DNA from: a virus
Direction: 5' to 3' (one strand)
DNA: 30,570 nt
IMG/VR virus record: IMGVR_UViG_3300037088_000791
Coordinates: 1 to 30,570 of that record
The notes beneath the pieces are model-generated. The model had not been told where the DNA came from and ran no database searches. It was given only the letters and a program-made list of their open reading frames with translations. The position numbers were made by a program, and so were the translations under genes. Positions 206-13,838 of the stretch are shown in pieces; the stretch's first letter is position 1, and the number at the start of each line of letters is the position of its first letter.

Positions 206-733
206 TCAAAACGGGCATTCGGCGGGGGCGGAATCGGGCTGGGATTCGACCTGGTCGGGGAACTGTTCCTCGCTGGTCAAACTGGCGTTTTTGGAAGATC
301 GGCGCTTCGACAGCAGGCGAGACCAAAGGGTCATCATCAATTGGCGCAATTGCTCGGTGGTGAGGTCCTCAATTACGCTGAAACCTTCAGCGATGTGGAA
401 CTTGTCCCGGGCTACGGCGAGGACGTATTCTCCATGCGGAGAGAGGGCGCGGCCATGGCGGTGGATTAGCCATAGGTAGCGGCGGCGGGCGCCGGGGTCG
501 GGGTTGCCGGACTCGGAGGCGCCGTCCAGGTCGTCGGTGAGTGCTTTTAGGTGGGCTTTGACCTGGTCGATGTCGGCAGCGTTGTCCAGATCGCTCATAG
601 TGCTTATTGGGCGGCCGACGGCCTGCGAGACGGTTTCGAGGCGGAGGGACCGGTCGTTCCGGTCCCAGCGCTGGGTTTCGCAGGCGGCGGGCCACCAGTC
701 GCCCATAATTGCGATGCGCTGTTTTGTGGTCAT
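206..733 (-). CDS. Mu gp16/GemA-like early phage protein
   Basis: The 175-residue product fits the general layout of the Mu gp16/GemA early regulatory family. An N-terminal helical part contains a V-x-R-x-I...DLDNAADIDQVKAHLKAL pattern, like the family's 'tGk.S..DL...e.d.Vl.HL' region. A C-terminal part (about 110-155) carries a KFHIAEGFSVIEDLTTEQL segment, typical of a domain that ends in 'dLt..el..li'. The start chosen is the ATG at 733, which overlaps the upstream stop as ATGA; a TTG at 739 is possible. It is the last early gene before the leftmost repeats. GemA-type proteins modulate host gene expression and supercoiling in Mu. The assignment rests on pattern similarity, not on a catalytic motif. 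Confidence 0.5.
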   Translation of the reverse strand: MTTKQRIAIMGDWWPAACETQRWDRNDRSLRLETVSQAVGRPISTMSDLDNAADIDQVKAHLKALTDDLDGASESGNPDPGARRRYLWLIHRHGRALSPHGEYVLAVARDKFHIAEGFSVIEDLTTEQLRQLMMTLWSRLLSKRRSSKNASLTSEEQFPDQVESQPDSAPAECPF

Positions 734-993
734 AGACAATATTTTAGGATCAAGCCGATGGCCTTGGCTGCCTGGCGGCCGCTGACCAATGGGCGAAAAT
801 GGGTTTCACCAGTGACGGTATCGCGGATGCCGTATTCGAAGCGGTGCCACCGCACCATTTTTGGTTCTGGCTCAGGTCTGTTCTCGGAATTAGCGCGCCA
901 TCTGTCCCATCGTGCTTTTGCCATACGGCGTCCGCGCGCTGATAAAGAGCGCTTAACTCGCTGGCTGTAGCGACCTTGAAACTCGTGCAGCAT
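730..993 (-). CDS. Hypothetical basic early phage protein
   Basis: This is an 87-residue, strongly basic protein with no family I recognise. Residues about 15-35 (SLSARGRRMAKARWDRW) form an Arg/Lys-rich amphipathic stretch suited to nucleic-acid binding. The C-terminal half contains a short beta-like segment (MVRWHRFEYGIRDTVTGET) followed by a helix. Its stop overlaps the ATG of the gp16-like gene as ATGA, so the two are translationally coupled. It is the first gene to the left of the cassette array and has no complete attC before it, which argues that it belongs to the phage backbone rather than to a cassette. Confidence 0.55.
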   Translation of the reverse strand: MLHEFQGRYSQRVKRSLSARGRRMAKARWDRWRANSENRPEPEPKMVRWHRFEYGIRDTVTGETHFRPLVSGRQAAKAIGLILKYCL

Positions 994-1013
994 AGGCTTT
1001 GGACTGTATGCAC

Positions 1014-1040
1014 TGACGCATAATTACTTGTTCGGCGTCA
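1014..1040 (-). repeat. Truncated terminal attC (attC15, R'' box only) at the left end of the array
   Basis: An R''-like box, GCCGAAC on the minus strand (1030-1036), ends the last cassette, but no L' or R' half follows within 100 bases. A small TGACGC/GCGTCA inverted repeat (1014-1019 with 1035-1040) replaces it. The box matches six of eight bases of its own cassette's 5' box (GTTCGGAG in attC14). The array therefore appears cut off here and phage sequence resumes. Confidence 0.5.
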
Positions 1041-1239
1041 GCGGTGCATAGCCATTTGGGTTGTGATTCACGACCACTTCCCTGATCTCTCCCGATTCCG
1101 TGTCGAGCCACGCATCCGCCGCATAGTCGTCACCGCGTTTGAATCGTTTGTCGTGTTCCGGTCTCCGGATGTATCGCTCCGAACCAGCCGCTGGAGTTCC
1201 TGTCAGTTCGAGCGTCGGTTGCAGATTCACGGTTTCCAT
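1024..1239 (-). CDS. Cassette N: hypothetical protein, N-terminus encoded by attC14
   Basis: This is a 71-residue acidic protein with no recognised family. The ATG at 1239 lies inside attC14, so about the first 19 residues (METVNLQPTLELTGTPAAG) come from the recombination site and the rest from the cassette. The body (from about 20) has charged and aromatic residues and an EIREVVVNHNPNGYAP segment near its end. A longer reading frame reaches 1428, but that part is the shadow of cassette M in another frame. The start overlaps the stop of cassette M by 13 bases. This is the last cassette, and its attC is truncated. Confidence 0.55.
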   Translation of the reverse strand: METVNLQPTLELTGTPAAGSERYIRRPEHDKRFKRGDDYAADAWLDTESGEIREVVVNHNPNGYAPLTPNK

Positions 1240-1272
1240 AGTTCGCGCCTGTGGCTCCGCTCTGTGTTCTGC
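1178..1272 (-). repeat. attC14 (95 bp)
   Basis: R'' is GCAGAAC (complement at 1266-1272) and R' is GTTCGGA (complement at 1178-1184). The R'' is complementary to the 5' box of cassette M (GTTCTGC in attC13) over seven bases. It contains the stop of cassette M (1227) and the start of cassette N (1239). Confidence 0.7.
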
Positions 1273-1490
1273 TTGCACCCGATTATGTGTGTGATGGTTC
1301 CCCCATTCGGGCCTGGGTCGTTGTGGCATTCGGGGCACCACACGGCCATCTTGTCCGCGCAGGTCTTTCCCGGCGCATACGTTGCACAGTTCGGGCATTC
1401 GCCGAGCAGATACCATCCGCACCAGCACTTGGCTAATGGCGGCAGCAGGCTCAGGCTGTCCATGTATGCTTGTTGGTCAGAGTTGAACAT
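1227..1490 (-). CDS. Cassette M: Cys-rich, probable zinc-ribbon protein
   Basis: This 87-residue protein has two CxxC-type clusters in its middle (KCWCGW..GECPNC and, after a spacer, CADKMAVWCPEC), plus a CKQN and a histidine, which suggests one or two zinc ribbons. The ATG at 1490 is three bases after the R' box of attC13. A GTG at 1505 inside attC13 would add five residues. The gene is tightly spaced after cassette L (stop at 1502) and ends inside attC14. No enzymatic domain is visible; a small metal-binding or nucleic-acid-binding role is likely. Confidence 0.6.
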   Translation of the reverse strand: MFNSDQQAYMDSLSLLPPLAKCWCGWYLLGECPNCATYAPGKTCADKMAVWCPECHNDPGPNGGTITHIIGCKQNTERSHRRELWKP

Positions 1491-1491
1491 C

Positions 1492-1580
1492 GCAGAACCA
1501 GTCACTCCAGCGGACGGCGGGATTCCGCTTCAGTCATTTTGTTGCTCAGTGGCCCGCCGCCGCTGAGTTCTGCGTTATGC
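1492..1580 (-). repeat. attC13 (89 bp)
   Basis: R'' is GCATAAC (complement at 1574-1580) and R' is GTTCTGC (complement at 1492-1498). It belongs to the same size and sequence class as attC1: both share a central CGGCGGG and a TTGTTGCTCAG segment. R'' does not match the 5' box of its own cassette L (GTTAGAA) beyond GTTA, so L may be a fused cassette. Confidence 0.75.
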
Positions 1581-1885
1581 CTCCACGGCACGATCTTCTC
1601 GCCCGTGCATTCCAGTAGCGCCTCGGGAAGCGGTTGCTCCGCGCTCTTGGGTTGCGCGAAGCCGTCCTTTTCGAGTTCGATGATCTCGATTCTGGTTTTG
1701 ACAATGCAGGCGTCGAGCGCCTTGTTCACTTCTTCTTCGCTGGTGAACCCTTGCGGCCAATGACACTTTGAACCCAGGCACCAACCCTCATGCGCTCCCT
1801 TGTGCCCCAGGTCCAGGTGGCAGCGCGATACAAACTCGCCGTTGGCAAGCTCGAATTTGGCGCGGCATTGCGGTTTGGGTGTCAT
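1502..1885 (-). CDS. Cassette L gene 3: Cys/His-rich protein, duplicate of cassette G gene 2
   Basis: The 127-residue product contains PQCRAKFELANGEF, then a CHLDLGHKGAHEG segment and CLGSKCHWP, so four Cys and several His suggest a zinc-binding fold like those of small zinc-finger proteins. From residue 4 to about 74 it is identical to the protein at 4360-4647, and the underlying DNA is almost unchanged, which shows a recent duplication. After that the C-termini differ: here an extra 50 residues, the last part of which is encoded by attC13. The ATG overlaps the preceding stop as ATGA. It is the third gene of a three-gene cassette. Confidence 0.65.
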   Translation of the reverse strand: MTPKPQCRAKFELANGEFVSRCHLDLGHKGAHEGWCLGSKCHWPQGFTSEEEVNKALDACIVKTRIEIIELEKDGFAQPKSAEQPLPEALLECTGEKIVPWRHNAELSGGGPLSNKMTEAESRRPLE

Positions 1886-2181
1886 AATCCCAACGTCCTG
1901 TCTGATGCCTTAATCCCGGCATCCGCTAATTCTCTCAATTGGCCCGGCTTAAATGGTCCGAGGTTGAAATGGCTGTCGGCTACGAAGGAACAATTATAGT
2001 CGAGCCAATCAAGCCTCGCCCGCTCTCGGTCAAGCTGTCTCCTGTGGCTATTGAGGCCGTCAGCCCCGCTACGCAGTCCATCACTGAAAGCCTCAGCCTG
2101 GAAAGCGTTAAGCGCGGCGACAAACTCCTTGTCATCGCCGTAAATCTTCCACTCGGCTATAAATTCACCAACGGTTTTCAT
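1882..2181 (-). CDS. Cassette L gene 2: hypothetical protein
   Basis: This is a 99-residue, mostly helical protein of unknown function. The first half is acidic and helical (about 1-45), the centre is Arg-rich (SHRRQLDRERARLDWLDYN, about 44-63) and the end contains a short GQLRELADAGIKASDRT helix. A pattern of 'RARLDWLD' followed by a short hydrophobic strand is common in small phage and cassette proteins that never receive a function. Its start overlaps gene 1 of the cassette by ATGA and its stop overlaps gene 3 by ATGA, so the three form one translational unit. Confidence 0.6.
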   Translation of the reverse strand: MKTVGEFIAEWKIYGDDKEFVAALNAFQAEAFSDGLRSGADGLNSHRRQLDRERARLDWLDYNCSFVADSHFNLGPFKPGQLRELADAGIKASDRTLGL

Positions 2182-2297
2182 AGTTCGTCTGGTTCAGTTT
2201 CTTGCTCGTCTGGGTCGTCAAGTTCGCGCCCCATGTGCAGGTCGTCGCACAGCCCGCCCGCCAGCAGCCCGCCGCTAAAGTTCACGATGTATTCCAT
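2178..2297 (-). CDS. Cassette L gene 1: small acidic protein related to cassette G gene 1
   Basis: This 39-residue open frame starts 13 bases after the R' box of attC12 and ends with an ATGA overlap into the next gene. Its segment GGLLAGGLCDDLHMGREL, followed by an acidic tail ending EPDEL, closely matches the C-terminal half of the 76-residue protein at 4644-4874 (LLAGGLCDDLHMEREI and an acidic tail ending EPDDL). The two cassettes therefore share a first gene and a zinc-binding gene, and this copy lacks the first half. Function is unknown. Confidence 0.55.
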   Translation of the reverse strand: MEYIVNFSGGLLAGGLCDDLHMGRELDDPDEQETEPDEL

Positions 2298-2306
2298 ATT
2301 CGAGTC

Positions 2307-2365
2307 TTCTAACCAATCACTTCACCGAACCGGCTCCGCGCCGGTCGGTGAGTTCTGTGTTCGCC
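2307..2365 (-). repeat. attC12 (59 bp)
   Basis: R'' is GGCGAAC (complement at 2359-2365) and R' is GTTAGAA (complement at 2307-2313). The R'' exactly complements the 5' box of its own cassette K (GTTCGCC in attC11). The core, with CACCG, CCGG...CCGG and CGGTG arms, is identical to attC7 over about 45 bases. Confidence 0.85.
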
Positions 2366-2583
2366 ATGACGAGGAATCCATCCTTGCTCACCAGGATGCC
2401 GGCAGCGATCAGGCAGTCCAGATGGTTCCATCGGCCTCTGAGCAGGGTTTGTGACTCGTCATTCCTGGCGGTTTTCCCACAAAGAGGGCAGATCCACCGT
2501 TTTTTGGCGACTTGCTTGGCGAACAAGTCGCTTGAGGACAACGGCGGGATCGCTGGCAGTTGGGTAGTCCGTTCAGTGCTCAT
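2317..2583 (-). CDS. Cassette K: small zinc-ribbon-like protein, N-terminus encoded by attC11
   Basis: This is an 88-residue protein. The first about 20 residues (MSTERTTQLPAIPPLSSSDL) are encoded within attC11 and closely match the leader of cassette I. The body has CPLCGK at about 32-37 and HLDC about 20 residues later, a CxxC...HxxC arrangement suggesting a small zinc finger or HNH-like metal site. No HNH catalytic motif is evident. The last 14 residues (LTDRRGAGSVK) are encoded by attC12, as for cassette A. Function is unknown; a nucleic-acid-binding role is possible. Confidence 0.6.
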   Translation of the reverse strand: MSTERTTQLPAIPPLSSSDLFAKQVAKKRWICPLCGKTARNDESQTLLRGRWNHLDCLIAAGILVSKDGFLVMANTELTDRRGAGSVK

Positions 2584-2625
2584 GCTAGGGAGTTTTCGCG
2601 CCGTGCCTCAGCTCTGGCGTTAGGG
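2518..2625 (-). repeat. attC11 (108 bp)
   Basis: R'' is CCCTAAC (complement at 2619-2625) and R' is GTTCGCC (complement at 2518-2524). R'' extended by one base (CCCCTAAC) exactly complements the 5' box of its own cassette J (GTTAGGGG in attC10). The site contains the start codon of cassette K at 2583. Confidence 0.85.
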
Positions 2626-2626
2626 G

Positions 2627-3430
2627 TCACAGCATCACCCCTTGTTGTAGTTCGCGCCGGATTCGGTCGCAGGCAGTCTCGAAGTGGCGCTTGTCCTTCT
2701 CGATGCCAATGAATTTACGTTTGCCCTTGATGCAGGCTATCGCCGTTGTCCCGCTGCCCATAAATGGATCGAGCACGGTTGCACCCTCGGGAGTCACTCC
2801 GACGAGGTTCTGCATTAGTTCGACGGGCTTCTCGGCTACGTGTTCCTTTTCCTCGCCTCCGACTGGCTGGTATTGCAGGACGTTTTGCGGCGACTTTTCG
2901 CCCGCCACCGGCACGCCGATGGACCCATAGACGATGTATTCAGATGATGACGAGAATCGGCCACGCTGCATCCTCACGCCCGGCTTCCACCACGTCACCA
3001 GGTTGCGCCACACCCAGCCGCCGCACTGGATTGCATCGGTCATCGTCGGCAGTTGCCGCCAGTCCGTGAATACCATGATGACCGCCCCGGCATTGCAGCA
3101 TCCGTGGCAGTCCCGCAGCCACATGGATGCCCACGCGAGGAAGGCGCGCTGGTCGCGGTTGTCGCCGCTGAACTCCACACGGCAGGTTATTTCGCTGTCG
3201 GTGTTCACGTATTTCGAGGACGGCGCTTGCGCTCGGTCGCCCCGGAATTGCCCTCCGCTGCTGTATGGTGGATCGGTGATGACTGCATCCACGCCGGTGA
3301 TTTGCGGGAGCACGTCCTCGGCGTTGGCATTGTAGAGGGTGCATGGGCCGATAATGACCCCTAACAAATCAGTCGAGCAGACGGCGGGCTCGCCGGTCAG
3401 TCGAGAGGTTTCTGGCATGCTGGTAGTCAT
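2627..3430 (-). CDS. Cassette J: DNA adenine or N4-cytosine methyltransferase (beta class, orphan)
   Basis: This 267-residue protein transfers a methyl group from S-adenosylmethionine to an amino group in DNA. The catalytic motif IV, TDPPYSSGG, is at about 52-60, and the AdoMet-binding motif I, LDPFMGSGTT, is at about 220-229, followed by an IGIEKD motif II. This order (catalytic motif first) is that of beta-group amino-methyltransferases. The central region should hold the target recognition part. The first about 23 residues come from attC10; a later start near residue 24 would leave the domain intact. No restriction endonuclease lies nearby, so it is an orphan, plausibly protecting phage DNA from host restriction. 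The stop abuts attC11. Confidence 0.9.
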   Translation of the reverse strand: MTTSMPETSRLTGEPAVCSTDLLGVIIGPCTLYNANAEDVLPQITGVDAVITDPPYSSGGQFRGDRAQAPSSKYVNTDSEITCRVEFSGDNRDQRAFLAWASMWLRDCHGCCNAGAVIMVFTDWRQLPTMTDAIQCGGWVWRNLVTWWKPGVRMQRGRFSSSSEYIVYGSIGVPVAGEKSPQNVLQYQPVGGEEKEHVAEKPVELMQNLVGVTPEGATVLDPFMGSGTTAIACIKGKRKFIGIEKDKRHFETACDRIRRELQQGVML

Positions 3431-3466
3431 GGGGTTTTCGCGCCGCTGCTCACTTCGGTGTTATAC
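3359..3466 (-). repeat. attC10 (108 bp)
   Basis: R'' is GTATAAC (complement at 3460-3466) and R' is GTTAGGG (complement at 3359-3365). R'' exactly complements the 5' box of its own cassette I (GTTATACC in attC9). It holds the stop codon of cassette I at its R'' end and the start codon of the methyltransferase at 3430. Confidence 0.85.
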
Positions 3467-3745
3467 CGCTCCGCTCTCGAACATTTCATTCGCACAGTCA
3501 TCGGTCAGTGCCGCCTCCAGGTTGATGAGTGCGTCGAGCGTGCTCATCGCTATTTTGCCACGCACCGGCTTTTCACCCGGCCAGTCCATTTGCGCTCGGA
3601 ATATCGTCTTGCCCTTCATGACTTGTTCGACGGTTAGGCGTCCCCCTGCGTTGAGCGCACACGTTGTCCACGTTCCCCGGTATAACAAGTCGCTGGAGGA
3701 CAACGGCGGGATCGCCGGTAGTTTTGTGGTCGTTTTAGTGCTCAT
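3461..3745 (-). CDS. Cassette I: hypothetical protein, N-terminus encoded by attC9
   Basis: This 94-residue protein is of unknown function. The leader MSTKTTTKLPAIPPLSSSDL is encoded by attC9 and differs by only three residues from the leader of cassette K, although the bodies are unrelated. The body (from about 24) contains short beta-like segments (TIFRAQMDWPGEKPVRGKIAM) and then a helical, acidic end (LDALINLEAALTDDCANEMF). The stop TAA lies within the R'' box of attC10 (GTATAAC). No metal or catalytic motif is visible. Confidence 0.55.
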   Translation of the reverse strand: MSTKTTTKLPAIPPLSSSDLLYRGTWTTCALNAGGRLTVEQVMKGKTIFRAQMDWPGEKPVRGKIAMSTLDALINLEAALTDDCANEMFESGAV

Positions 3746-3787
3746 GCTTTGGGGTTGTCGCGCCGCGCCTCAGCTCTGGCGTTGGGC
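3680..3787 (-). repeat. attC9 (108 bp)
   Basis: R'' is GCCCAAC (complement at 3781-3787) and R' is GTTATAC (complement at 3680-3686). R'' with its flanking base exactly complements the 5' box of its own cassette H (GTTGGGCA in attC8). It contains the start codon of cassette I at 3745. Confidence 0.85.
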
Positions 3788-3788
3788 A

Positions 3789-4013
3789 TTACCATAGTTC
3801 GTCCTCGGTGCATGTCCATGTTTTGAGTTTCCGTTTGGGGCTTCCTTTGGGCGCGAGCAGCCCGTCGCATACGTCGCAGCAGCGCGCCACGATTAGTTTC
3901 TTGCCTTTGGTGGCGATCACCGAGACTTCGCAGCCAGACCAGTCATGGTTTTCGCGCACGAATGCCCAGGATGTCCCAATTTGTGGTTTATACTTCAGGT
4001 GTTTTGTTTTCAT
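3789..4013 (-). CDS. Cassette H: small basic Cys-containing protein
   Basis: This is a 74-residue, Lys-rich protein. Residues about 12-42 look like a small beta-barrel (GTSWAFVRENHDWSGCEVSV followed by KGKKLIVARC), and CCDVCDG at about 45-51 provides clustered cysteines, so metal binding is possible. The ATG at 4013 lies about 30 bases after the R' box of attC8 and needs no attC-encoded leader. The stop codon is two bases before the R'' box of attC9. No known family is recognised. Confidence 0.55.
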   Translation of the reverse strand: MKTKHLKYKPQIGTSWAFVRENHDWSGCEVSVIATKGKKLIVARCCDVCDGLLAPKGSPKRKLKTWTCTEDELW

Positions 4014-4043
4014 GTATTTATGTCAGTTACAGTTGTCCGTGAT

Positions 4044-4141
4044 GCCCAACCAATCGCTGCACACAATGAGGGCCGCGCTTGGCTCGGAGGCAATTCGGAT
4101 GTTGTTTGGGCGGCCCTCATGTGTGAGCTTGATCGTTATGT
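4044..4141 (-). repeat. attC8 (98 bp)
   Basis: R'' is ACATAAC (complement at 4135-4141) and R' is GTTGGGC (complement at 4044-4050). The arms GAGGGCCGC and GCGGCCCTC pair perfectly with extra unpaired bases outside, as in classical attC folds. R'' matches the 5' box of cassette G (GTTATGC) in six of seven positions. Confidence 0.85.
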
Positions 4142-4357
4142 AAAGTTCGCGTCATCTCGCTCCTCTGTCAGTTTCCTGACTTCTTCCCGTAGGCGGTCAT
4201 TCCGTCGCTTTAGTTCGTCCACCTTCTCTGAGAAGGCGCGTTGCAGGCCGACCCGCGTTTTTCGCAAGTGTTCAGCAACCCGTTTTTCTATGCGGAGCTT
4301 GTCCCGGCAGTCGGTCAAATGCTCCATCAGGATAAGTTCTTTCTTGGCCAACTTCAC
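4136..4357 (-). CDS. Cassette G gene 3: coiled-coil protein
   Basis: This protein of 73 residues from a GTG start (or 63 from an ATG at 4327) consists almost wholly of charged heptad-like helix. The stretch KVDELKRRNDRLREEVRKL near the C-terminus has hydrophobic residues at a/d spacing typical of a parallel coiled coil, so it probably forms dimers or binds a partner. It follows gene 2 of the same cassette after a two-base gap (stop at 4360, GTG at 4357), with no attC between them. The stop lies in the R'' box of attC8. Specific function is unknown. Confidence 0.55.
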   Translation of the reverse strand: MKLAKKELILMEHLTDCRDKLRIEKRVAEHLRKTRVGLQRAFSEKVDELKRRNDRLREEVRKLTEERDDANFT

Positions 4358-4359
4358 GG

Positions 4360-4647
4360 TTACAAGTCTTTCTCAAGTTCGATGATCTCGATTCTGGTTT
4401 TGACAATGCAGGCGTCGAGCGCCTTGTTCACTTCTTCTTCGCTGGTGAACCCTTGCGGCCAATGACACTTTGAACCCAGGCACCAACCCTCATGCGCTCC
4501 CTTGTGCCCCAGGTCCAGGTGGCAGCGCGATACAAACTCGCCATTGGCAAGCTCGAATTTGGCGCGGCATTGGGGAGTCGGGAGTCCTTTGTAATCGGGA
4601 TATGGGATTCCTGCCTCAGCACAGGTGTATTTCGGTTGCTTGCTCAT
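4360..4647 (-). CDS. Cassette G gene 2: Cys/His-rich protein, duplicate of cassette L gene 3
   Basis: This is a 95-residue protein with the same Cys/His pattern as the protein at 1502-1885: PQCRAKFELANGEF, CHLDLGHKGAHEG and CLGSKCHWP. About 70 consecutive residues are identical. This copy has a different N-terminus with one more Cys (YTCAEAGIPYPDYKG) and ends at the point where the other copy continues. A zinc-binding fold is likely; the target is unknown. The ATG overlaps the stop of gene 1 by four bases. The DNA identity (about 4378-4565 against 1679-1866) points to a recent copy event within the array. Confidence 0.65.
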   Translation of the reverse strand: MSKQPKYTCAEAGIPYPDYKGLPTPQCRAKFELANGEFVSRCHLDLGHKGAHEGWCLGSKCHWPQGFTSEEEVNKALDACIVKTRIEIIELEKDL

Positions 4648-4874
4648 AAATCGTCTGGTTCAGTGTCATCGTCTTCGTCTGTTATCTCGCGCTCCATGTG
4701 CAGGTCGTCACAGAGCCCGCCCGCCAGAAGTCCGGCGCATGGCCGGTCGCTCTCGGGCGTGCAGGTGCATTGTCCCGCGAGTTCGGCCACAAGCTCTTGG
4801 TAGCTCGGGTCATCGTGCATGTTGTCGTAGCGCCGTTGCGCCCGATCAAATCTCGTTCCAAATCCACTTGGCAT
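4644..4874 (-). CDS. Cassette G gene 1: acidic hypothetical protein
   Basis: This is a 76-residue protein whose ATG is part of the R' box of attC7 (GTTATGCC), so the recombination point itself supplies the start codon. It has a helical charged N-terminus, a central CTCTPESDRPCAG segment with three Cys, and an acidic C-terminus. The C-terminal half (from LLAGGLCDDLHMEREI) matches the 39-residue protein of cassette L. It is translationally coupled (ATGA) to the Cys/His-rich gene that follows, as in cassette L. Function is unknown. Confidence 0.55.
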   Translation of the reverse strand: MPSGFGTRFDRAQRRYDNMHDDPSYQELVAELAGQCTCTPESDRPCAGLLAGGLCDDLHMEREITDEDDDTEPDDL

Positions 4875-5118
4875 AACAAATCACTTCACCGAACCGGCTC
4901 CGCGCCGGTCGGTGAGTTCTGTGTTGGGCATTAGTATAGAAGGCGGCACAAATTCTGCGCCCCCAAAGCATTCGATGGAGGAGCTTCCGAAAGCCCTCCG
5001 GATTGTTTTTGCAGCTCTGAATGAAGGCCATTTGGTATGGGAGGAGCGGGAACGCCGAACCAGGCGGTGCAGGCAACGGCGGGCTCGCTGGCAGTTGGGT
5101 GGTCGGTTTCGTGTTCAT
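4846..5118 (-). CDS. Cassette F: hypothetical protein running through attC7
   Basis: The frame is 90 residues. Its first about 20 residues (MNTKPTTQLPASPPLPAPPG) come from attC6 and resemble the leaders of cassettes I and K. The middle (about 24-65) is a short helical, basic protein. The last 28 residues read through the whole of attC7 and into the next cassette, overlapping its start. Cassette F is only about 180 bp long, so it may encode a minimal protein or be a cassette whose gene has been trimmed. The start overlaps the stop of cassette E as ATGA within attC6. Coding status is uncertain. Confidence 0.4.
   Translation of the reverse strand: MNTKPTTQLPASPPLPAPPGSAFPLLPYQMAFIQSCKNNPEGFRKLLHRMLWGRRICAAFYTNAQHRTHRPARSRFGEVICYAKWIWNEI
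4871..4929 (-). repeat. attC7 (59 bp)
   Basis: R'' is GCCCAAC (complement at 4923-4929) and R' is GTTATGC (complement at 4871-4877). It has the classical 59-base length and is nearly identical to attC12. R'' does not exactly complement the 5' box of cassette F (GTTCGGC). The R' supplies the ATG of cassette G. Confidence 0.85.
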
Positions 5119-5160
5119 GCTTTGGGGTTTTCGCGCCGTGCCTGACCTTGGTCGTTCTGC
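5054..5160 (-). repeat. attC6 (107 bp)
   Basis: R'' is GCAGAAC (complement at 5154-5160) and R' is GTTCGGC (complement at 5054-5060). R'' exactly complements the 5' box of its own cassette E (GTTCTGCG in attC5). The stop of cassette E and the start of cassette F overlap here as ATGA (5115-5118). Confidence 0.85.
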
Positions 5161-5354
5161 GCCACGTCGTACGCTGCGAGCATCCTGTCGTACTCCCTTC
5201 CGAGTCTTTGATAGTCGGCCCCACCCGTCCAGAAGGCTGCGGCGTACTCGCGGAATTTGGCCTCACACTGTTCCCAGGTCGGCGCAGAACAAGACGGTGG
5301 AGAGGACGGCGGGCGTCCCGGTCTGTCAGCAGCTTCTGGCATGTCGATAGTCAT
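5115..5354 (-). CDS. Cassette E: hypothetical helical protein, N-terminus encoded by attC5
   Basis: This is a 79-residue protein of unknown function. Residues 1-22 (MTIDMPEAADRPGRPPSS and on) are encoded by attC5. The remainder (WEQCEAKFREYAAAFWTGG, then DYQRLGREYDRMLAAYDVA) forms two amphipathic helices rich in aromatic residues, as in small helical-hairpin proteins. It is coupled at both ends through attC sites: its ATG overlaps the stop of cassette D (ATGA) and its stop overlaps the ATG of cassette F (ATGA). Confidence 0.5.
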   Translation of the reverse strand: MTIDMPEAADRPGRPPSSPPSCSAPTWEQCEAKFREYAAAFWTGGADYQRLGREYDRMLAAYDVAQNDQGQARRENPKA

Positions 5355-5390
5355 GGGTTCTTCGCGCCGCCTCTCACCTTGGCGTTGGGC
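5284..5390 (-). repeat. attC5 (107 bp)
   Basis: R'' is GCCCAAC (complement at 5384-5390) and R' is GTTCTGC (complement at 5284-5290). R'' plus the flanking base exactly complements the 5' box of its own cassette D (GTTGGGCG in attC4). The stop of cassette D and the start of cassette E overlap inside it (5351-5354). Confidence 0.85.
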
Positions 5391-5584
5391 GATATGCGAC
5401 CCTCTGCTATTGTGCCGTCAGCCCAGATGACTTTCACCCAGTCCTTGGTTTTCAATACCCAGGATGGGAACGCGTCCACCCATCCTTCGCGGCGGCATGA
5501 TTCTGCTATTTCCAGGCCGGAGCGCCCAACCAAGCGGGTCGAGCCAACAGCCGGATCGCTGGTCTTTGAGTGGTCGTCGGGCAT
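5351..5584 (-). CDS. Cassette D: small hypothetical protein, N-terminus encoded by attC4
   Basis: This is a 77-residue protein. The first about 18 residues come from attC4. The body contains CRREGWVDAFPSWVLKTKDW followed by VKVIWADGTIAEGRISPNAKV, a Trp-rich segment with a beta-hairpin pattern similar to small SH3-like barrels. No catalytic motif is visible and no family is recognised. The ATG is three bases after the stop of cassette C, and its own stop overlaps the next start by ATGA. Function is unknown. Confidence 0.5.
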   Translation of the reverse strand: MPDDHSKTSDPAVGSTRLVGRSGLEIAESCRREGWVDAFPSWVLKTKDWVKVIWADGTIAEGRISPNAKVRGGAKNP

Positions 5585-5632
5585 AGTTACGTCCTTAGTT
5601 TTCTCGGCTGTGGCTCACCCGCCGCGTTATGC
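5524..5632 (-). repeat. attC4 (109 bp)
   Basis: R'' is GCATAAC (complement at 5626-5632) and R' is GTTGGGC (complement at 5524-5530). R'' with one more base exactly complements the 5' box of its own cassette C (GTTATGCC in attC3). It contains the stop of cassette C (5587-5589) and the start of cassette D (5584). Confidence 0.85.
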
Positions 5633-5937
5633 CTGAGCCGTCGCCTGATCTTCTTGCAGGTTCGCAGGTCCACCATCATTTCGCGCATACAGTTGTGCCA
5701 TCGCGCCCAGGGCTGCCGGTAGCGCACCTTGGCGTAGTTACCAGTGATGCTCAGGATTTCCCCGGCGCCGTTGTATTCTCGGTTGTTTGTGATGCCTTTA
5801 ATCACGAGGCGGACTTCATCGCCAACGGCATAACCAGCCGCTAGAGCCAATGAGGACTGAGCCTCCTTGTTTTGGATCATCGTAGCTTCGGCGCTGCCGC
5901 AGTGCTCATCGCGCATGATTTGTCGTATCGTCCTCAT
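5587..5937 (-). CDS. Cassette C: hypothetical beta-barrel-like protein
   Basis: The frame is 116 residues from the ATG at 5937, which lies inside attC3; an ATG at 5880 is another start inside the same site. From about residue 37 (YAVGDEVRLVIKGITNNREY...GEILSITGNYAKVRY) the pattern of alternating beta strands with a 'VGDEVRL...GEI.SI.G.YAKVRY' layout resembles SH3/KOW-like barrels. A basic segment with Cys follows (MVDLRTCKKIRRRLRHN). The ATG in the R' box (GTTATGCC) is in another frame and gives only nine codons, so translation must begin in the attC. Function is unknown. Confidence 0.5.
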   Translation of the reverse strand: MRTIRQIMRDEHCGSAEATMIQNKEAQSSLALAAGYAVGDEVRLVIKGITNNREYNGAGEILSITGNYAKVRYRQPWARWHNCMREMMVDLRTCKKIRRRLRHNAAGEPQPRKLRT

Positions 5938-5958
5938 GGCTCAGCTTGTGTGTTATGC
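5828..5958 (-). repeat. attC3 (131 bp)
   Basis: R'' is GCATAAC (complement at 5952-5958) and R' is GTTATGC (complement at 5828-5834). The arms GAGCC-ATGAGGAC and GTCCTCAT-TGGCTC pair with a single-base bulge, as in known attC folds. R'' exactly complements the 5' box of its own cassette B (GTTATGCT in attC2). It is the longest site of the array. Confidence 0.85.
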
Positions 5959-6468
5959 TTCATAGCCGTCCTTGGGCCATTGCCGGGCAACTGGTTTGGG
6001 TTCATTCCTCAAACGGATAAATGATGGTTTCGCGCGGGCCAGCGCGTCCTTCAGGCAATAGCTTGCGTCTTCACCATTCGTCGGCTGCGTCCAATAGGTG
6101 TTCTTGAGCAACTTCACCAGCGATTCCGCCTCCGGGCATCGGTGCGTCGGGCCGTCCTTTGGATAATCGTCGAACCCGACCAAGACGACGGGCAGGTTCT
6201 GCTCATCGACATCAAGTACGATCTGCTCGTAAGCACGCCGGACCAAAAATGGCGTGATGGTGTAAACCACGGGGCGCATCCCCGCAATGGCCATTCCGGC
6301 AGCGATTCCCACCATGCTCTGCTCGGCCACACCGCAGTTGATGTATTGCAGCGGGCGCTCGGCCTTCAACTGGTTGAACATCCCGAAACAGAAATCGCCA
6401 GTTAGCAGGACGATGCGCTTGTCTTTTAGCGCAAGCTCTGTGAGGGTCTTTGCAAAAGTTGTTTTCAT
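5953..6468 (-). CDS. Cassette B gene 2: transketolase-like pyrimidine-binding subunit
   Basis: This 171-residue protein corresponds to the Pyr (transketolase C-terminal subunit) domain of thiamine-diphosphate enzymes. It carries VLLTGDFCFGMFNQLK at about 20-35, YINCGVAEQSMVGIAAGMAIAG at about 42-63 (the conserved glutamate that activates thiamine diphosphate lies in GVAEQ), and PTHRCPEAES near 108. Usual split subunits are about 300 residues, so the C-terminal transketolase domain is absent and only the pyrimidine domain remains. It overlaps gene 1 by ATGA, and its stop is inside the R'' box of attC3. Together the pair should form one ThDP active site in the cytoplasm; the sugar substrate is unknown. 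Confidence 0.85.
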   Translation of the reverse strand: MKTTFAKTLTELALKDKRIVLLTGDFCFGMFNQLKAERPLQYINCGVAEQSMVGIAAGMAIAGMRPVVYTITPFLVRRAYEQIVLDVDEQNLPVVLVGFDDYPKDGPTHRCPEAESLVKLLKNTYWTQPTNGEDASYCLKDALARAKPSFIRLRNEPKPVARQWPKDGYEA

Positions 6469-7112
6469 TTCAGTTCCTCCGTTGCCTCTTGATACTCGGC
6501 TTCTGTGAGCACCCGCTTGTGGTCCTTGGTGCCGACCAAGAATGACACACCCTGACCTTTCTTGGTAGCATGATACGTCACGAAGTCTGGAAACAGAATG
6601 CGGAGTCCCGGCGCGACGTTCACCGGCAGATCGCCGAGGGCGCCGACGCCATTGCCATCCACATGAATCTCAAGACCGGGGGCAAGCCGCCATTCCCGCG
6701 CCAAGGATAATGATTCCCATGTCGTGCCTTCCAGACATTCACCGTCGCCCACGAGAACATAAACATGACCGCACTGGCCGAGTATCCGCTTCGCCAGCGC
6801 AATGCCCAGTGCCATCGGCAGGCCATGCCCAAGGCTCCCGGTCGTGCAGGTGATACCATTGAGCGGGTCGCGCTCAGGGTGAGTCTTTTGCAGGTCTGGC
6901 TTGTAGCCCCGTTCTAGAGACTCCAGACATGCGTAGAGCGCAACCGCCGCGTGGCCCTTGCTCAATATGAACACGTCGCCCCTTTGTGGGTCGAGGTGCG
7001 CGAAGATTGGGGCCATGACCTGCAACGCGCTCAAAGTGCCAGGCAGGTGTGCATGGCCGTGGTCGCGGCAGATTTCCAGGACTCGTTTTACAAGAGGCTT
7101 GAAGTTAAGCAT
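6465..7112 (-). CDS. Cassette B gene 1: transketolase-like ThDP-binding subunit
   Basis: This 215-residue protein matches the N-terminal (pyrophosphate-binding) subunit of split transketolases. SKGHAAVALYACL is at about 50-62, TGSLGHGLPMALGIALAKR at about 91-109, and the ThDP motif VGDGECLEGTTWE, followed by an Asn in HVDGNG, at about 120-154. The usual N-subunit is about 270 residues, so this is compact. The ATG is part of the R' box of attC2. These split enzymes often take part in making unusual sugars, but a two-carbon transfer reaction on a specific sugar cannot be deduced. It is cotranscribed with the pyrimidine subunit downstream. Confidence 0.88.
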   Translation of the reverse strand: MLNFKPLVKRVLEICRDHGHAHLPGTLSALQVMAPIFAHLDPQRGDVFILSKGHAAVALYACLESLERGYKPDLQKTHPERDPLNGITCTTGSLGHGLPMALGIALAKRILGQCGHVYVLVGDGECLEGTTWESLSLAREWRLAPGLEIHVDGNGVGALGDLPVNVAPGLRILFPDFVTYHATKKGQGVSFLVGTKDHKRVLTEAEYQEATEELK

Positions 7113-7167
7113 AACGATTCACTTCACCGAACCGGCTCCGCGCCGGTCGCTGAGCAAGGTGTTATGA
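7109..7167 (-). repeat. attC2 (59 bp)
   Basis: R'' is TCATAAC (complement at 7161-7167) and R' is GTTATGC (complement at 7109-7115). R'' with its flanking base (CTCATAAC) exactly complements the 5' box of its own cassette A (GTTATGAG in attC1). The core matches attC7 and attC12 apart from a few bases near the R'' side. Confidence 0.85.
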
Positions 7168-7325
7168 GTGACCGCAGCCTCCGCACTATTCATGGTTTCG
7201 ACGATCTTCTTGTTCCCGTCTTCCACGGTCAGTCGGCAAACCGCTGTCAAGTGCGCTTCGAGTTCTTTGACTCGGACTTCCAGTTCGTTCACCCGTTCCA
7301 ACAATTCAGTGTTCGTTGCGCTCAT
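7119..7325 (-). CDS. Cassette A: coiled-coil protein
   Basis: This is a 68-residue protein. Residues 5-28 (NTELLERVNELEVRVKELEA) form an ideal leucine-zipper-like coiled coil; a polar middle follows, and the last 11 residues (LSDRRGAGSVK) are encoded by attC2. The ATG at 7325 is part of the R' box of attC1, six bases after the stop of the DnaA-like gene, so the pair is probably coupled in translation. It may dimerise with or modulate a partner protein. No known family is recognised. Confidence 0.55.
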   Translation of the reverse strand: MSATNTELLERVNELEVRVKELEAHLTAVCRLTVEDGNKKIVETMNSAEAAVTHNTLLSDRRGAGSVK

Positions 7326-7412
7326 AACAATCACTTCAGCAGACGGCGGGCGTCCGCTCCTGTTTGTTGTTGTTGCTCAGCGGCCCGCTCGCTGCTGAGT
7401 TTGGTGTTGAAT
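7322..7412 (-). repeat. attC1 (91 bp), at the right end of the array
   Basis: R'' is ATTCAAC (complement at 7406-7412) and R' is GTTATGA (complement at 7322-7328). It resembles attC13 in length and in its central sequence. It is fused to the 3' end of the DnaA-like gene, whose last 27 or so codons are encoded by the site. No GTTGAAT partner box is seen before that gene. Confidence 0.75.
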
Positions 7413-7813
7413 GTCAAAGCGGAAACCAGGGAGGCGTATTCGTTGCAGGATTGGGGGTACGAGTCGAGGCGGTCCTGGAGGGCGCGCGAGCAGTAGCAGA
7501 TCGATCCGATGTGCCGGTTGAATAGGAGCCCCAAATGGCGAAGGCTGGCCGTGGTTTCGCGGCAGGACAGACCAATGGCCAGGAGACGTGGCCAGAGCAG
7601 GCGCTCGCGGCGGTCATGGGATTCCAGGTCCTCAAATGTCACGTGGTAGCGGTCGCAGATGAGGTCCGCGATCTGAACGATTCGGTCTAGGTCCTTGGGA
7701 TTGAGGGCCGGGCGGTGCTCGCCGCGGGTGCGGACGCGTGGGGGGAACTGGGATACATCCCGGCCGGCCTGTTCCGCGCGCCGCCGGGCGGTGCAGATGG
7801 TGCTGGAAATCAT
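7331..7813 (-). CDS. DnaA domain IV-like DNA-binding protein
   Basis: This is a 160-residue protein whose centre (about 38-118) matches the C-terminal DNA-binding domain of the replication initiator DnaA: a helix with IVQIADLICDRYHVTFEDL, a basic turn ESHDRRERLLWPRLLAIGL, and the helix-turn-helix end (LGLLFNRHIGSICYCSRAL). There is no AAA+ domain. The N-terminus is basic. It follows the small membrane protein by 13 bases. Its last about 27 residues are encoded by attC1, so the original end was probably lost when the array joined. It may bind DnaA-box-like sites to guide replication or regulate genes. It could be a phage gene or the first cassette gene. Confidence 0.65.
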   Translation of the reverse strand: MISSTICTARRRAEQAGRDVSQFPPRVRTRGEHRPALNPKDLDRIVQIADLICDRYHVTFEDLESHDRRERLLWPRLLAIGLSCRETTASLRHLGLLFNRHIGSICYCSRALQDRLDSYPQSCNEYASLVSALTFNTKLSSERAAEQQQQTGADARRLLK

Positions 7814-8100: not shown

Positions 8101-8133
8101 ATTATGAAGGATGAATTATGAATGATGAATGAC
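8101..8133. repeat. 7-bp tandem repeat (ATGAATN type)
   Basis: About four to five degenerate heptamers (attatga, aggatga, attatga, atgatga) lie between the Gam gene and the membrane protein gene. Confidence 0.75.
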
Positions 8134-8681
8134 TAGGCGGCGGCGGGCTTCTTGGCGGGCTTGTCGGTTTTCATGGCGAAGGGCTTGATCTTGAAATTGT
8201 CGGTGTGGACGCGACGCACGCCGAAGAGGTGAAGTATCCCGTCGGGCAGCGTTTCCAGGGCTTCAATGTTCGGGGTTACTTTCACGCGCAGAAGCTGTTT
8301 AGCGGTGAAGAGAGGCGCGCGTTTTTCGCTGGCGGCATAGGCTTCTTCTTCGTCACCTGCGCGGTCGATCCGGAGGGAGACTTCATCTGGGTCATCAAAA
8401 TCCAGCGTGGTGGACTTGGTATAAGCGATTTCCCCGAATGGCGTTTTGTGGGAGCGCTTGTCGGCGGGAAATAGCTCGACGTAGAGGGTGTCGCTCAGCT
8501 TTCGGATTTGGGATTCCAGGTTGGCGAGGGCGACTTTGGCAGCGGCATGTTTGGGGAGCAGCTCCTGGGCGGCGGCGAGTTGGACGGTTTTGATCTCGGC
8601 TTCAGCTCCTTCGAGCGCGGCGGTGAGGGTCGAGAATTGGGAGAGGAGGTCGTTGAGTTTATTGTATTCGGTGGCAGTCAT
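8133..8681 (-). CDS. gam: Mu Gam-like host-nuclease inhibitor
   Basis: This is a 182-residue protein, close to the usual 170-180 residues of Mu Gam, which binds DNA ends as a Ku-like dimer and shields them from host exonucleases. The N-terminal 80 residues form a long helix (LSQFSTLTAALEGAEAEIKTV and on), typical of the family. The TPFGEIAYTKSTTLDF stretch at about 80-95 matches the family's 'tp.G.i.wr.t..v' strand region, and a C-terminal RVKVTPNIEALETLPDGI region matches the end of the fold. Its place after the transposase and ATPase genes matches Mu. The last residues are Lys/Pro/Ala-rich. Confidence 0.8.
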   Translation of the reverse strand: MTATEYNKLNDLLSQFSTLTAALEGAEAEIKTVQLAAAQELLPKHAAAKVALANLESQIRKLSDTLYVELFPADKRSHKTPFGEIAYTKSTTLDFDDPDEVSLRIDRAGDEEEAYAASEKRAPLFTAKQLLRVKVTPNIEALETLPDGILHLFGVRRVHTDNFKIKPFAMKTDKPAKKPAAA

Positions 8682-9054: not shown

Positions 9055-9082
9055 TTTAAGTGTTGAGTGTTGAGTGTTTAGT
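9055..9082. repeat. 7-bp tandem repeat (GTTGAGT type)
   Basis: Four heptamers (tttaagt, gttgagt, gttgagt, gtttagt) lie between the MuB-like gene and the next early gene. The motif is the same as at 8687-8714. Confidence 0.8.
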
Positions 9083-10064
9083 TGAGGGTATAGGAGCGCA
9101 GCAAGCGCTTGTGGGCGGCGCGGAAGGCGGCGGGCCAGGTGCGGTCGGAATTCTTCTTGCGGGCGCGGGCGGCGTATTGAAGCTGTTTCTCGACGGCGCG
9201 GAAGGCTCCGTCGTGCGCGACGACCTGGAGGCACAGGCTGATCAGCGCGTCGCGGTCTCCATTGGCGTCGGGGGCTAGTTCTTTGACGAGGTGCTCAATG
9301 AGGGGGCGCGGGTCTTTGAGGGGGATCTCGGGGGCTTCGTCGGCGCGGCTGGCGCGGCGCGCATCGGTCAGGAGCCGCTTCTTTAGGACGGGCAGGCCGA
9401 GTAGGACAACCGGGTTGCCGGTTTGCTCGTGAAAATCGACGCAGCATTGCAGAGCGGGGGGCCCGAGTTCGTGGGCATCGTCCACGATCAATAGGCGGTC
9501 GCTGTTGGTGCATTTTTCCACGATCAAATCCCAGCGGCGTTTGCGGGGTTCGGCGGGGCCTTTGGCATTTTTGCTCCGGCGGCGCTGGGGCTGGATGTCG
9601 GCAGCCTGGCAGAGGTCGTCTGCGAGAGCGCAGAGGCCCGTGTGCATGGCGGTGACTCGGAACGCAATGGCGAGGGTATGAGTCTGGAGGTACAGGCCGA
9701 GGCCGCGCGACTTGCCGGTGCCAGCCGGGCTGGTGATGACGGCCAGGGCGCGGTTGAGGCGCACCTCTTCGAGTTTCCGGCAAAGGTAGCGGCTGGCCTC
9801 AGTGTCGACCGTCGTGACTCCGGTAGTGCGGGTGAGGTTGCGGTCGCGGAGCCATTCGCGGATGCGCGCTTCGATAGCCGGCAGGTCGCCGTTGAACTTA
9901 TTGTTGAGGTAAATATTGACGTAGCCGGCGCTGTAACCGATGCCGCGGCCGAGTTCGGCATTGCTGAGGCCGGTGGCTTTGAGGGCGGAGATGAGAGCAG
10001 GGTCGCAGTCGGGGGTTTCGTCGCGGTCGCTGGGGGGGAGAGATTTTTCGGCGAAGGAGTTCAT
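9078..10064 (-). CDS. MuB-like AAA+ transposition ATPase
   Basis: This is a 328-residue protein that should bind ATP and target DNA and activate the transposase for replicative transposition. An N-terminal helix-turn-helix (about 25-57, LISALKATGLSNAELGRGIG and on) matches the MuB DNA-binding domain. The Walker A motif SPAGTGKS is at about 112-119, Walker B LLIVDDAHEL at about 191-200, and an NPVVLLGLP sensor-like strand follows. The C-terminal helical domain ends near 328. The chosen ATG overlaps the stop of the preceding gene as ATGA; a longer frame to 10136 would overlap it too far. It lies two genes after the transposase, like Mu A and B. Confidence 0.85.
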   Translation of the reverse strand: MNSFAEKSLPPSDRDETPDCDPALISALKATGLSNAELGRGIGYSAGYVNIYLNNKFNGDLPAIEARIREWLRDRNLTRTTGVTTVDTEASRYLCRKLEEVRLNRALAVITSPAGTGKSRGLGLYLQTHTLAIAFRVTAMHTGLCALADDLCQAADIQPQRRRSKNAKGPAEPRKRRWDLIVEKCTNSDRLLIVDDAHELGPPALQCCVDFHEQTGNPVVLLGLPVLKKRLLTDARRASRADEAPEIPLKDPRPLIEHLVKELAPDANGDRDALISLCLQVVAHDGAFRAVEKQLQYAARARKKNSDRTWPAAFRAAHKRLLRSYTLN

Positions 10065-10267
10065 GCTATTTGACAGTTGGGGGAGATGACAGTTGGGGGA
10101 GTTGCTCGTTGGCGAGTGATGAATAGGACTGGACAATTGTATAGCTTCGAGAAAGGGACTAAGGCCTCGCGCACGTCGTCAATTGTCTGGGCGCTGATGA
10201 CCAATTCTGGTCCATCTTCTTGCAACTTACCGGCCTCTTCCGTATAGGACCGTGTGATGAAGTCCAT
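10061..10267 (-). CDS. Hypothetical protein between transposase and ATPase
   Basis: This is a 68-residue protein with no recognised family. The chosen ATG at 10267 has an AGAAAGG ribosome-binding site about six bases ahead. An upstream TTG at 10303 overlapping the transposase stop is less likely. Residues 1-45 look like a small helical and strand region (EEAGKLQEDGPELVISAQTI). Close to the 3' end the DNA contains a 16-bp direct repeat (10071-10102), so the last codons may be recent. It is coupled to the MuB-like gene by ATGA. Confidence 0.5.
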   Translation of the reverse strand: MDFITRSYTEEAGKLQEDGPELVISAQTIDDVREALVPFSKLYNCPVLFITRQRATPPTVISPNCQIA

Positions 10268-12222: not shown

Positions 12223-12226
12223 AGGA

Positions 12227-12925
12227 TCAAAGTGTTCTCCGGAGTTGATCGAGGAAAGTGGCGTCGCGTTTGGCGGCCGGGGTGTTGAGCCAGGTTCGGC
12301 GGATCCGGAGATGCTTTTTGAGGACGGCGGCCTGAGCTTCGATGCGATGTTCGTCGGGGAGGAAGGTGAAGTTTGCGCCGTAAGCTGCGAGGGACATTTC
12401 GAGCTTGTTCCAATCTTTGACAGCCGCCTTTCGGAACGCCGCGGCGGTCTCATCTATGGTGAGGGCGCGGCGGCCACCTTCGCCGCGGCGGCGGCCGGCG
12501 CAGGGATGGGATTCGTCGTCATCGTCGAGTTTACCCTGTTTGAATTCGAGGCAAAGTTGGCGCTGGGTCTTGCCTTCTATTAGCTTTTCTACGTTTGCAG
12601 GAAGTTTACCATCATGGGCAAATAACGGATAATCCCTTATTTTGAACATCCTGGTTTCGATGATTCCGCGCCCAATGGACAGATAGACAGTAACGGTGTC
12701 ATAGTTCAGTTGCGGCAGATTGCGGGAGACCCAGGGACGAAATGCTCCGTGTGGAATGGAGCCATCTTCTTTACCGCGCTGCTTGATGTACTGGAGGAAG
12801 ATGCCGAGAAATACAGCTTTACGGGTGGCATCGAGGAAAAGGGTATGTGTGGCGGCGAACATGGTGCCGAGCTGGACGGCGGCTTCGGAGTGCCAGGCGG
12901 GCGGGAGTTTCGTGAGTCTGTTCAT
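12227..12925 (-). CDS. Helical early phage protein (DUF3102-like)
   Basis: This 232-residue protein starts at the ATG at 12925, which overlaps the upstream stop codon as TAATG; a longer open frame to 13183 is the shadow of the previous gene. The first 90 residues contain a helical ATHTLFLDATRKAVFLGIFLQYIKQ stretch and PHGAFRPWVSRNLPQLNYDT, the pattern of phage proteins that read 'L..GE.L...K..L.HG.F..W....l..s.rTa..Y'. The middle is charged (KQGKLDDDDESHPCAGRRR) and the end is helical. Its exact role is unknown; such proteins often sit beside replication genes. It lies directly upstream of the transposase. Confidence 0.55.
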   Translation of the reverse strand: MNRLTKLPPAWHSEAAVQLGTMFAATHTLFLDATRKAVFLGIFLQYIKQRGKEDGSIPHGAFRPWVSRNLPQLNYDTVTVYLSIGRGIIETRMFKIRDYPLFAHDGKLPANVEKLIEGKTQRQLCLEFKQGKLDDDDESHPCAGRRRGEGGRRALTIDETAAAFRKAAVKDWNKLEMSLAAYGANFTFLPDEHRIEAQAAVLKKHLRIRRTWLNTPAAKRDATFLDQLRRTL

Positions 12926-13776: not shown

Positions 13777-13838
13777 TTTTAACATCGTGTCAACACTTTG
13801 CGAAAATAGTTGCATTTATTTTCGAGGGGTGTTAAAAC
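13777..13838. promoter_or_regulatory. Candidate operator between the early and late blocks
   Basis: An imperfect palindrome spans 13792-13833: AACAC and CGAAAATA on the left mirror TATTTTCG and GTGTT on the right around an eight-base spacer (13 of 17 arm positions pair). An outer TTTTAACA/TGTTAAAA pair (13777 and 13830) overlaps it. It sits between the ribbon-helix-helix gene and the divergent rightward region, where the early promoter is expected. Binding protein and promoters are inferred. Confidence 0.5.

Follow-up and report, generated by a model that had tools for sequence, protein, structure and literature searches.

Integrons are regarded as bacterial devices, with phages as their occasional carriers. 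Integrase-less cassette clusters (CALINs) have already been reported in phages, with methyltransferase cargo, and the attC sites of Tetrasphaera phage TJE1 were shown to recombine, with a preference for the bottom strand (Qi et al. 2023, PMC9892861). In this study, we examined the whole of IMG/VR record IMGVR_UViG_3300037088_000791 (label G000; 30,570 bases, linear), hereafter the window. By its gene content, this record is a Mu-like transposable phage carrying a MuA-type transposase, MuB, Gam and MuF, and its early operon holds an array of 14 cassettes whose genes run antisense to their own attC sites. We read this locus, with a probability of roughly 0.7, as an integrase-less integron platform composed of an attI-like element, a conserved early gene that we call gene X and 14 cassettes at the end of a DnaA-like gene, for which the integron integrase (IntI) would be supplied by the host.

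Results

A covariance model built solely from 17 bacterial attC sites, each taken in the attC-top-strand orientation and each beside a co-directional open reading frame (ORF), matched 13 sites of the array at E<=2e-4 (65 to 22 bits, E 2e-17 to 2e-4; attC positions in Table 1) and, more weakly, a 14th (model match 1178-1220, E=0.046). All lie within 1178-7412 and share one orientation, on the + strand, and the rest of the 30.6 kb window gave no match beyond two far weaker mirror-strand matches of the same sites; at attC 1492-1580 the strands differed by 65.1 bits (+) vs 16.6 bits (mirror). This bears out the original prediction, made from the sequence alone, which had noticed 14 attC-like sites in one orientation and had proposed a covariance-model scan as a check. 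A scan by structure alone (score at least 12) found nine sites in the array, compared with a maximum of three in any of 60 dinucleotide shuffles and one in the rest of the window (23 kb). The R'' box and the opening bases of a true cassette come together in its circular form and are therefore complementary to each other. Here, this complementarity extended over a mean of 6.6 nt (up to 10) vs 2.8 nt for mismatched pairs, a value reached in 0 of 20,000 permutations, and 10 of the 14 pairs matched over at least 6 nt. When folded, the sites carry on one arm two unpaired bases that are spaced six apart; unpaired bases on one hairpin arm are the published attC signature, used by integrases to select the bottom strand (PMC3053210). 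A search of the window against Rfam, which has no family reporting such sites, returned no match. Judged by sequence and predicted fold, the 14 sites are genuine attC sites, and the window, with at least two attC sites and no intI, is a CALIN.

Three attC patterns were searched in IMG/VR and led to eight further contigs, seven of which hold arrays, from five phages: G002/G003, G019, G020, G021 and G022/G024 (records other than the window are labelled G001 to G024, and L labels are loci taken from them). Among these, G019 encodes a head protease, a portal protein and a terminase, G020 a terminase and a major head protein, and G022/G024, at 74.5 kb, a helicase.

In the window, the 5' arm of the + strand carries the unpaired attC bases, and homology to methyltransferases (MTases) and transketolases places the cassette genes on the - strand; the genes are therefore antisense to their own attC. 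Co-direction of gene and attC, a usual although not strictly defining trait of integrons, is thus lacking here. Among the bacterial loci that we found with the same attC pattern, 28 sites had their gene on the same strand, 1 was antisense and 5 were undecided, and since 9 of the 15 genomes carrying these loci encode proteins above the cut-off of the IntI model, the pattern marks true integrons. The polarity caller was checked on TJE1, whose sites it read as canonical. When applied to G002/G003, G019, G020, G021 and G022, the covariance model gave strong matches in one direction per phage and otherwise only weak mirror matches. Antisense polarity was found in the window and in the five other, mostly unrelated, IMG/VR phages. 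It is backed by gene homology in four of the six (MTase and transketolase in the window, an MTase in G003, an RNA-ligase-like gene in G020, an MT-A70 MTase and the helicase in G022), and gene direction in G019 and G021 was taken from the reading frames.

Several genes of the window have their start codon inside their own attC, an example being MSTERTTQLPAIPPLSSSD- in ORF 2317-2583, where no in-frame start lies near the beginning of the cassette body. Since genes start within their own attC, each cassette appears to carry its own translation start. ORF starts in attC numbered 27 vs 24 of 40 (actual vs opposite strand); as this test does not discriminate in GC-rich phages, we use it descriptively only. 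A modular leader system, suggested by reading frames across R', was considered and rejected, because the phases are mixed and, with cassette borders placed according to the true attC orientation, the genes start in their own attC. These observations also bear on whether the antisense genes merely reflect an accidentally inverted array in each phage, without functional meaning. Such an accident is given some room by the small number of phages, six, which share attC types and are perhaps not independent, and by the canonical polarity of TJE1. Nevertheless, polarity is set per cassette relative to its attC rather than by the insertion of an array, the six phages are concordant, and the genes start within their own attC, so that we consider this account unlikely.

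The borders of the array fall at G/TT. On the + strand, the array begins directly after ...GCATAATTACTTG, which ends at 1030, and the attI-like element that ends there is conserved up to exactly the G/TT cut before both G019 arrays, with a shorter match (TAATTACTTG) in G003/G002 and a diverged version in G020; between phages, 15 to 23 of its 27 bases are shared. It stands at the array end where attI would be expected, and its role as attI is putative. Gene X follows it immediately, in the reading direction, in four phages: G019 and G020 have homologues in the equivalent position (63% and 47% identical), and G003 has a truncated copy. Arrays are thus flanked by gene X in two further viral contigs that bear phage hallmark genes, and by its truncated copy in one more. 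The fold predicted for gene X, at low confidence, is a helix-hairpin-helix, and its sole match in bacteria was spurious, a repeated element. In G019, a second, truncated gene X likewise stands before an array, its attI-like element intact (23640-23727; L094 3640-3727). At the right border, the last R', GTTGAAT on the + strand, is a GTTRRRY core situated at the 3' end of the DnaA-like gene. When the flanks are joined in silico, the DnaA-like ORF is intact, ending in SALTFNK and a stop, with gene X 33 nt further on; the stop belongs to the attI-like element, and the intact ORF is therefore only mild support.

To the right of the array stand early genes on the same strand, the array being downstream of MuA, MuB and Gam. 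The original prediction had put the array within the early operon of a phage of the Mu-like kind, which is supported by these genes on the right and by gene X on the left, and its DnaA-like, Gam, MuB and MuA genes were recovered by family searches (Table 1). Its gp16-like pair on the left (206-739 and 730-993) did not hold up: neither ORF matched Pfam, PHROG or NCBIfam, and 730-993 is gene X. It had drawn the array at 1030-7412, where an array is indeed present but with proper limits of 1031-7406, and while it was right about the array itself, it had overlooked that the polarity is reversed, that the border is attI-like and that no integrase is present. It had further proposed that the cassettes would be read from the early promoter and might spread through the phage's own transposition.

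A similar picture might arise from a chimeric assembly or from a fragment of a host chromosomal integron abutting a phage end. Bacterial attC sites of the same structural family exist, the left flank is just 1 kb long, and the sister contig G001, which was retrieved through MuB and represents the same phage (99.9% identical over 21 kb), stops at window position 9187, short of the array. Against this, arrays in viral contigs that bear phage hallmark genes also have gene X at their side, genes in bacterial arrays have the opposite polarity, the junctions fall at integron cut points with flanks that join into an intact early gene, and the same layout appears in several independent assemblies. As the G/TT junction and the order of array, attI-like element and gene X recur in independent assemblies, an origin as host DNA beside a phage end is a poor fit, and we regard this explanation as highly improbable.

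Evidence of cassette turnover comes from a phage other than that of the window. G022 and G024, from different metagenomes, are near-identical over 38 kb, with 1,697 bases in one standing in place of 674 in the other. The breakpoint on one side, at G022 1054/1055 (L100/L105), falls exactly at G/TT, with 1 shared base to its left and 5,076 identical bases to its right; it coincides with the position at which, given the attC orientation adopted here, an integrase is predicted to cut. G002 and G003 (99.9% identical) differ by 250 bases, comprising a gene with its site (L014 1077-1433 vs L016 6143-6231). We dropped this difference as proof of excision by IntI, since its breakpoints lie in attC arms with one mismatch and a homology-driven deletion is at least as likely. 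MuA prophages in Verrucomicrobiota were also tried as empty sites and set aside, being too diverged at the array position and lacking MuB-to-gene-X synteny. The G002/G003 deletion, together with the lack of an integrase in the phage and the paralogous cassettes 3 and 8 of the window, would suit an array that was captured once and is now fixed and immobile, its genes evolving like ordinary genes of a phage operon through homologous recombination. An immobile array sits less easily with the retention of R''/cassette-start complementarity in most cassettes and of attC structure in nearly all, and with the replacement exactly at G/TT in G022/G024; we hold it to be somewhat unlikely.

No intI (TIGR02249) was found in the window, and a tyrosine recombinase (PF00589) is absent from the window and G001 as well as from G002, G003, G019, G021 and G023; in G020, the same search gave one weak sub-threshold match. 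The IntI model likewise had no match in the other array-phage records. Near several attC sites of G022 (L103 2658-3707, -) lies a gene for a 349-aa tyrosine recombinase, also encoded in G024, which has only weak XerA/XerC similarity. This protein is one reason to consider that a recombinase encoded by a phage or satellite, outside these records, mobilises the cassettes in a separate system that merely resembles an integron; others are that the records are fragments, and that the attI-like element and the reversed polarity are common to the phages and were not seen in bacteria. But the 349-aa protein fails the IntI model and is absent from most other array phages, and the attC geometry is very close to that of bacterial attC, leaving this proposal, in our view, with little credence.

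The integrase presumably comes from the host. Relatives of MuA were found in 32 of 388 Verrucomicrobiota genomes and in 0 of 199 Planctomycetota genomes, the best of the former being about 30-37% identical over most of the protein (E to 1e-90), and genomes of Chthoniobacterales (G005, G006) carry IntI together with attC of the same structural family. The host of the window phage is thus probably a member of the Verrucomicrobiota. The window and G001 together amount to ~39 kb, a typical length for a Mu-like phage. From these ~39 kb without a recombinase, the Verrucomicrobiota MuA relatives and the Chthoniobacterales IntI, we infer that a host IntI acts in trans.

Cassette units range from about 230 to 1,210 bases (Table 1). 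Family matches among the cargo are confined to cassettes 5 (PF01555, E=9e-31; a type II MTase by PADLOC) and 13 (PF00456, 4e-12; PF02779, 7e-27), the remainder being small proteins without a family. Cargo such as the DNA methyltransferase may serve to protect phage DNA on entry. A near-identical Cys/His-rich gene occurs in both cassette 3 (1502-1885) and cassette 8 (4360-4647), which suggests cassette duplication and re-assembly. In the other phages, a cassette gene of G020 (L096 16057-16719, +) matches RNA ligase 1 (PF17720, E=8.5e-17) and possibly counters an RNA-cleaving defence, and an 838-aa helicase ORF of G022 (L100 2960-5476, -) lies between attC sites and starts inside one, a replication gene in the form of a cassette.

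As for the rest of the window, family searches located a terminase and MuF in the late region. No relatives of the window phage were found via the DnaA-like gene, and no inverted repeat joining the record ends was found. An inverted repeat, TTTTAACACCCCTCGAAAATA...TATTTTCGCAAAGTGTTGACA, at 13788-13837 between the divergent early and late genes is possibly an operator. Short intergenic repeats link distant parts of the phage (13428-13463/26466-26501; 18968-19082/25281-25394; 8098-8129/25246-25277), among them a 36 bp inverted identical pair and one with 81% identity over 115 bp.

Table 1. Positions of the array, its cassettes and neighbouring genes in the window
Feature	Positions	Strand	Remarks
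attI-like border element	956..1030	+	...TGTATGCACTGACGCATAATTACTTG then TTCGG; cut at 1030/1031, G/TT
Gene X, 87-aa conserved early gene beside attI-like element	730..993	-	homologues in other phages; no family match
Whole array, 14 cassettes	1031..7406		attC top strand +, genes on -; shuffle/complementarity analysis and covariance model
Cassette 1	1031..1266	-	ORF 1024-1242 starts inside attC 1177-1271 (weakest site, E=0.046); stop supplied by attI-like element
Cassette 2	1267..1574	-	Cys-rich ORF 1227-1505; attC 1492-1580 (E=2e-17)
Cassette 3	1575..2359	-	short ORF, 1882-2181 and 1502-1885; attC 2307-2365
Cassette 4	2360..2619	-	zinc-ribbon-like ORF 2317-2583, start codon within attC 2518-2625
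Cassette 5	2620..3460	-	N6/N4 DNA methyltransferase 2627-3430, start codon within attC 3359-3466
Cassette 6	3461..3781	-	ORF 3461-3745; attC 3680-3787
Cassette 7	3782..4135	-	ORF 3789-4013; attC 4044-4141, site type also in G003, G019, G021
Cassette 8	4136..4923	-	ORFs 4136-4357, 4360-4647, 4644-4874; attC 4871-4929
Cassette 9	4924..5154	-	ORF from 5118; attC 5054-5160
Cassette 10	5155..5384	-	ORF 5115-5354; attC 5284-5390
Cassette 11	5385..5626	-	ORF 5351-5584; attC 5524-5632
Cassette 12	5627..5952	-	ORF 5587-5937; attC 5828-5958
Cassette 13	5953..7161	-	split transketolase-like pair, 6465-7112 (N part) and 5953-6468 (pyrimidine-binding part); attC 7109-7167
Cassette 14	7162..7406	-	coiled-coil ORF 7119-7334; attC 7322-7412
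DnaA-C-domain early gene, 3' end broken by array	7407..7813	-	found as ORF 7331-7813; PF08299, E=4.5e-8
Mu Gam-like	8133..8681	-	PF07352 (Pfam), E=4.1e-12
MuB-like transposition ATPase	9078..10136	-	phrog_296, E=2.1e-33
MuA-like transposase	10300..12453	-	phrog_310, E=3.6e-10
177-aa ORF after gene X, no family assigned	206..739	-	ORF; no match in Pfam, PHROG, NCBIfam

Discussion

We propose that IntI from the host or a co-resident element would capture and exchange cassettes by acting on the attI-like element and attC, and that the early promoter would transcribe the array in the direction that leads from the DnaA-like gene to gene X, entering opposite attI. New cassettes would then arrive at the attI-like end, the last part to be transcribed, each supplying its own start codon in or at attC. 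Reversed cassettes may be silent in a bacterial integron, where they would be antisense to the promoter, and bacterial ones may be silent in the phage, which would give separate pools. More tentatively, and with somewhat less than an even chance of being right, phages might keep a cassette economy of their own, a reversed-polarity pool with a phage attI that is swapped between unrelated phages via the borrowed host integrase and held apart by polarity.

Several points weigh against the platform. The array of the window phage is known from one assembly only, and the completeness of this phage was inferred from combining two records. The direction of several small cassette ORFs rests solely on reading frame, the G002/G003 difference looks homology-driven rather than IntI-made, and conservation of the attI-like element could be mere conservation of a gene X leader. 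Furthermore, neither the host species nor its integrase was found, an exact attC search gave no convincing bacterial match, and the attI-like pattern had two matches in 289 Verrucomicrobiota genomes, which is at chance level.

A layout that recurs in several phages, with reversed genes, a shared attI-like border, no integrase and replacement of cassettes at the integrase cut point, would make phages active users of integrons that maintain their own cassette pool, and this would account for the quick swapping of anti-restriction and other early genes by phages. As far as could be found, the reversed polarity, the shared attI-like platform and the Mu-like carrier are new; searches of open-licence papers, whose silence is weak evidence, turned up no earlier description of reversed cassettes, of an attI-like element in a phage or of a Mu-like phage with an array.

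With the Mu-like phages of the B3 and BcepMu group, the window shares MuA, MuB, Gam, MuF and divergent early and late genes, and its terminase is 26-32% identical to those of B3 and relatives; it differs in that its early operon bears an integron array and in that MuA and MuB had no match among 50,697 phage records. Sedentary chromosomal integrons resemble it in their long one-orientation arrays of small cassettes, in attC structure and in apparent turnover on the attI side (as in G022/G024), whereas the window has neither intI nor Pc, its genes are antisense, and its array is enclosed in a phage early operon. Unusual polarity is also known from the integrons of Treponema (PMC3607928), but there it is intI that is reversed, while in the window the cassette genes are reversed and no integrase is present. 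Closest are the phage CALINs such as that of TJE1 (PMC9892861), which likewise consist of attC clusters without an integrase in phage genomes, with methyltransferase cargo and GTTRRRY border motifs. Yet TJE1 has three attC sites with co-directional genes, whereas the window has 14 sites with antisense genes, a Mu-like carrier and an attI-like border shared with other phages.

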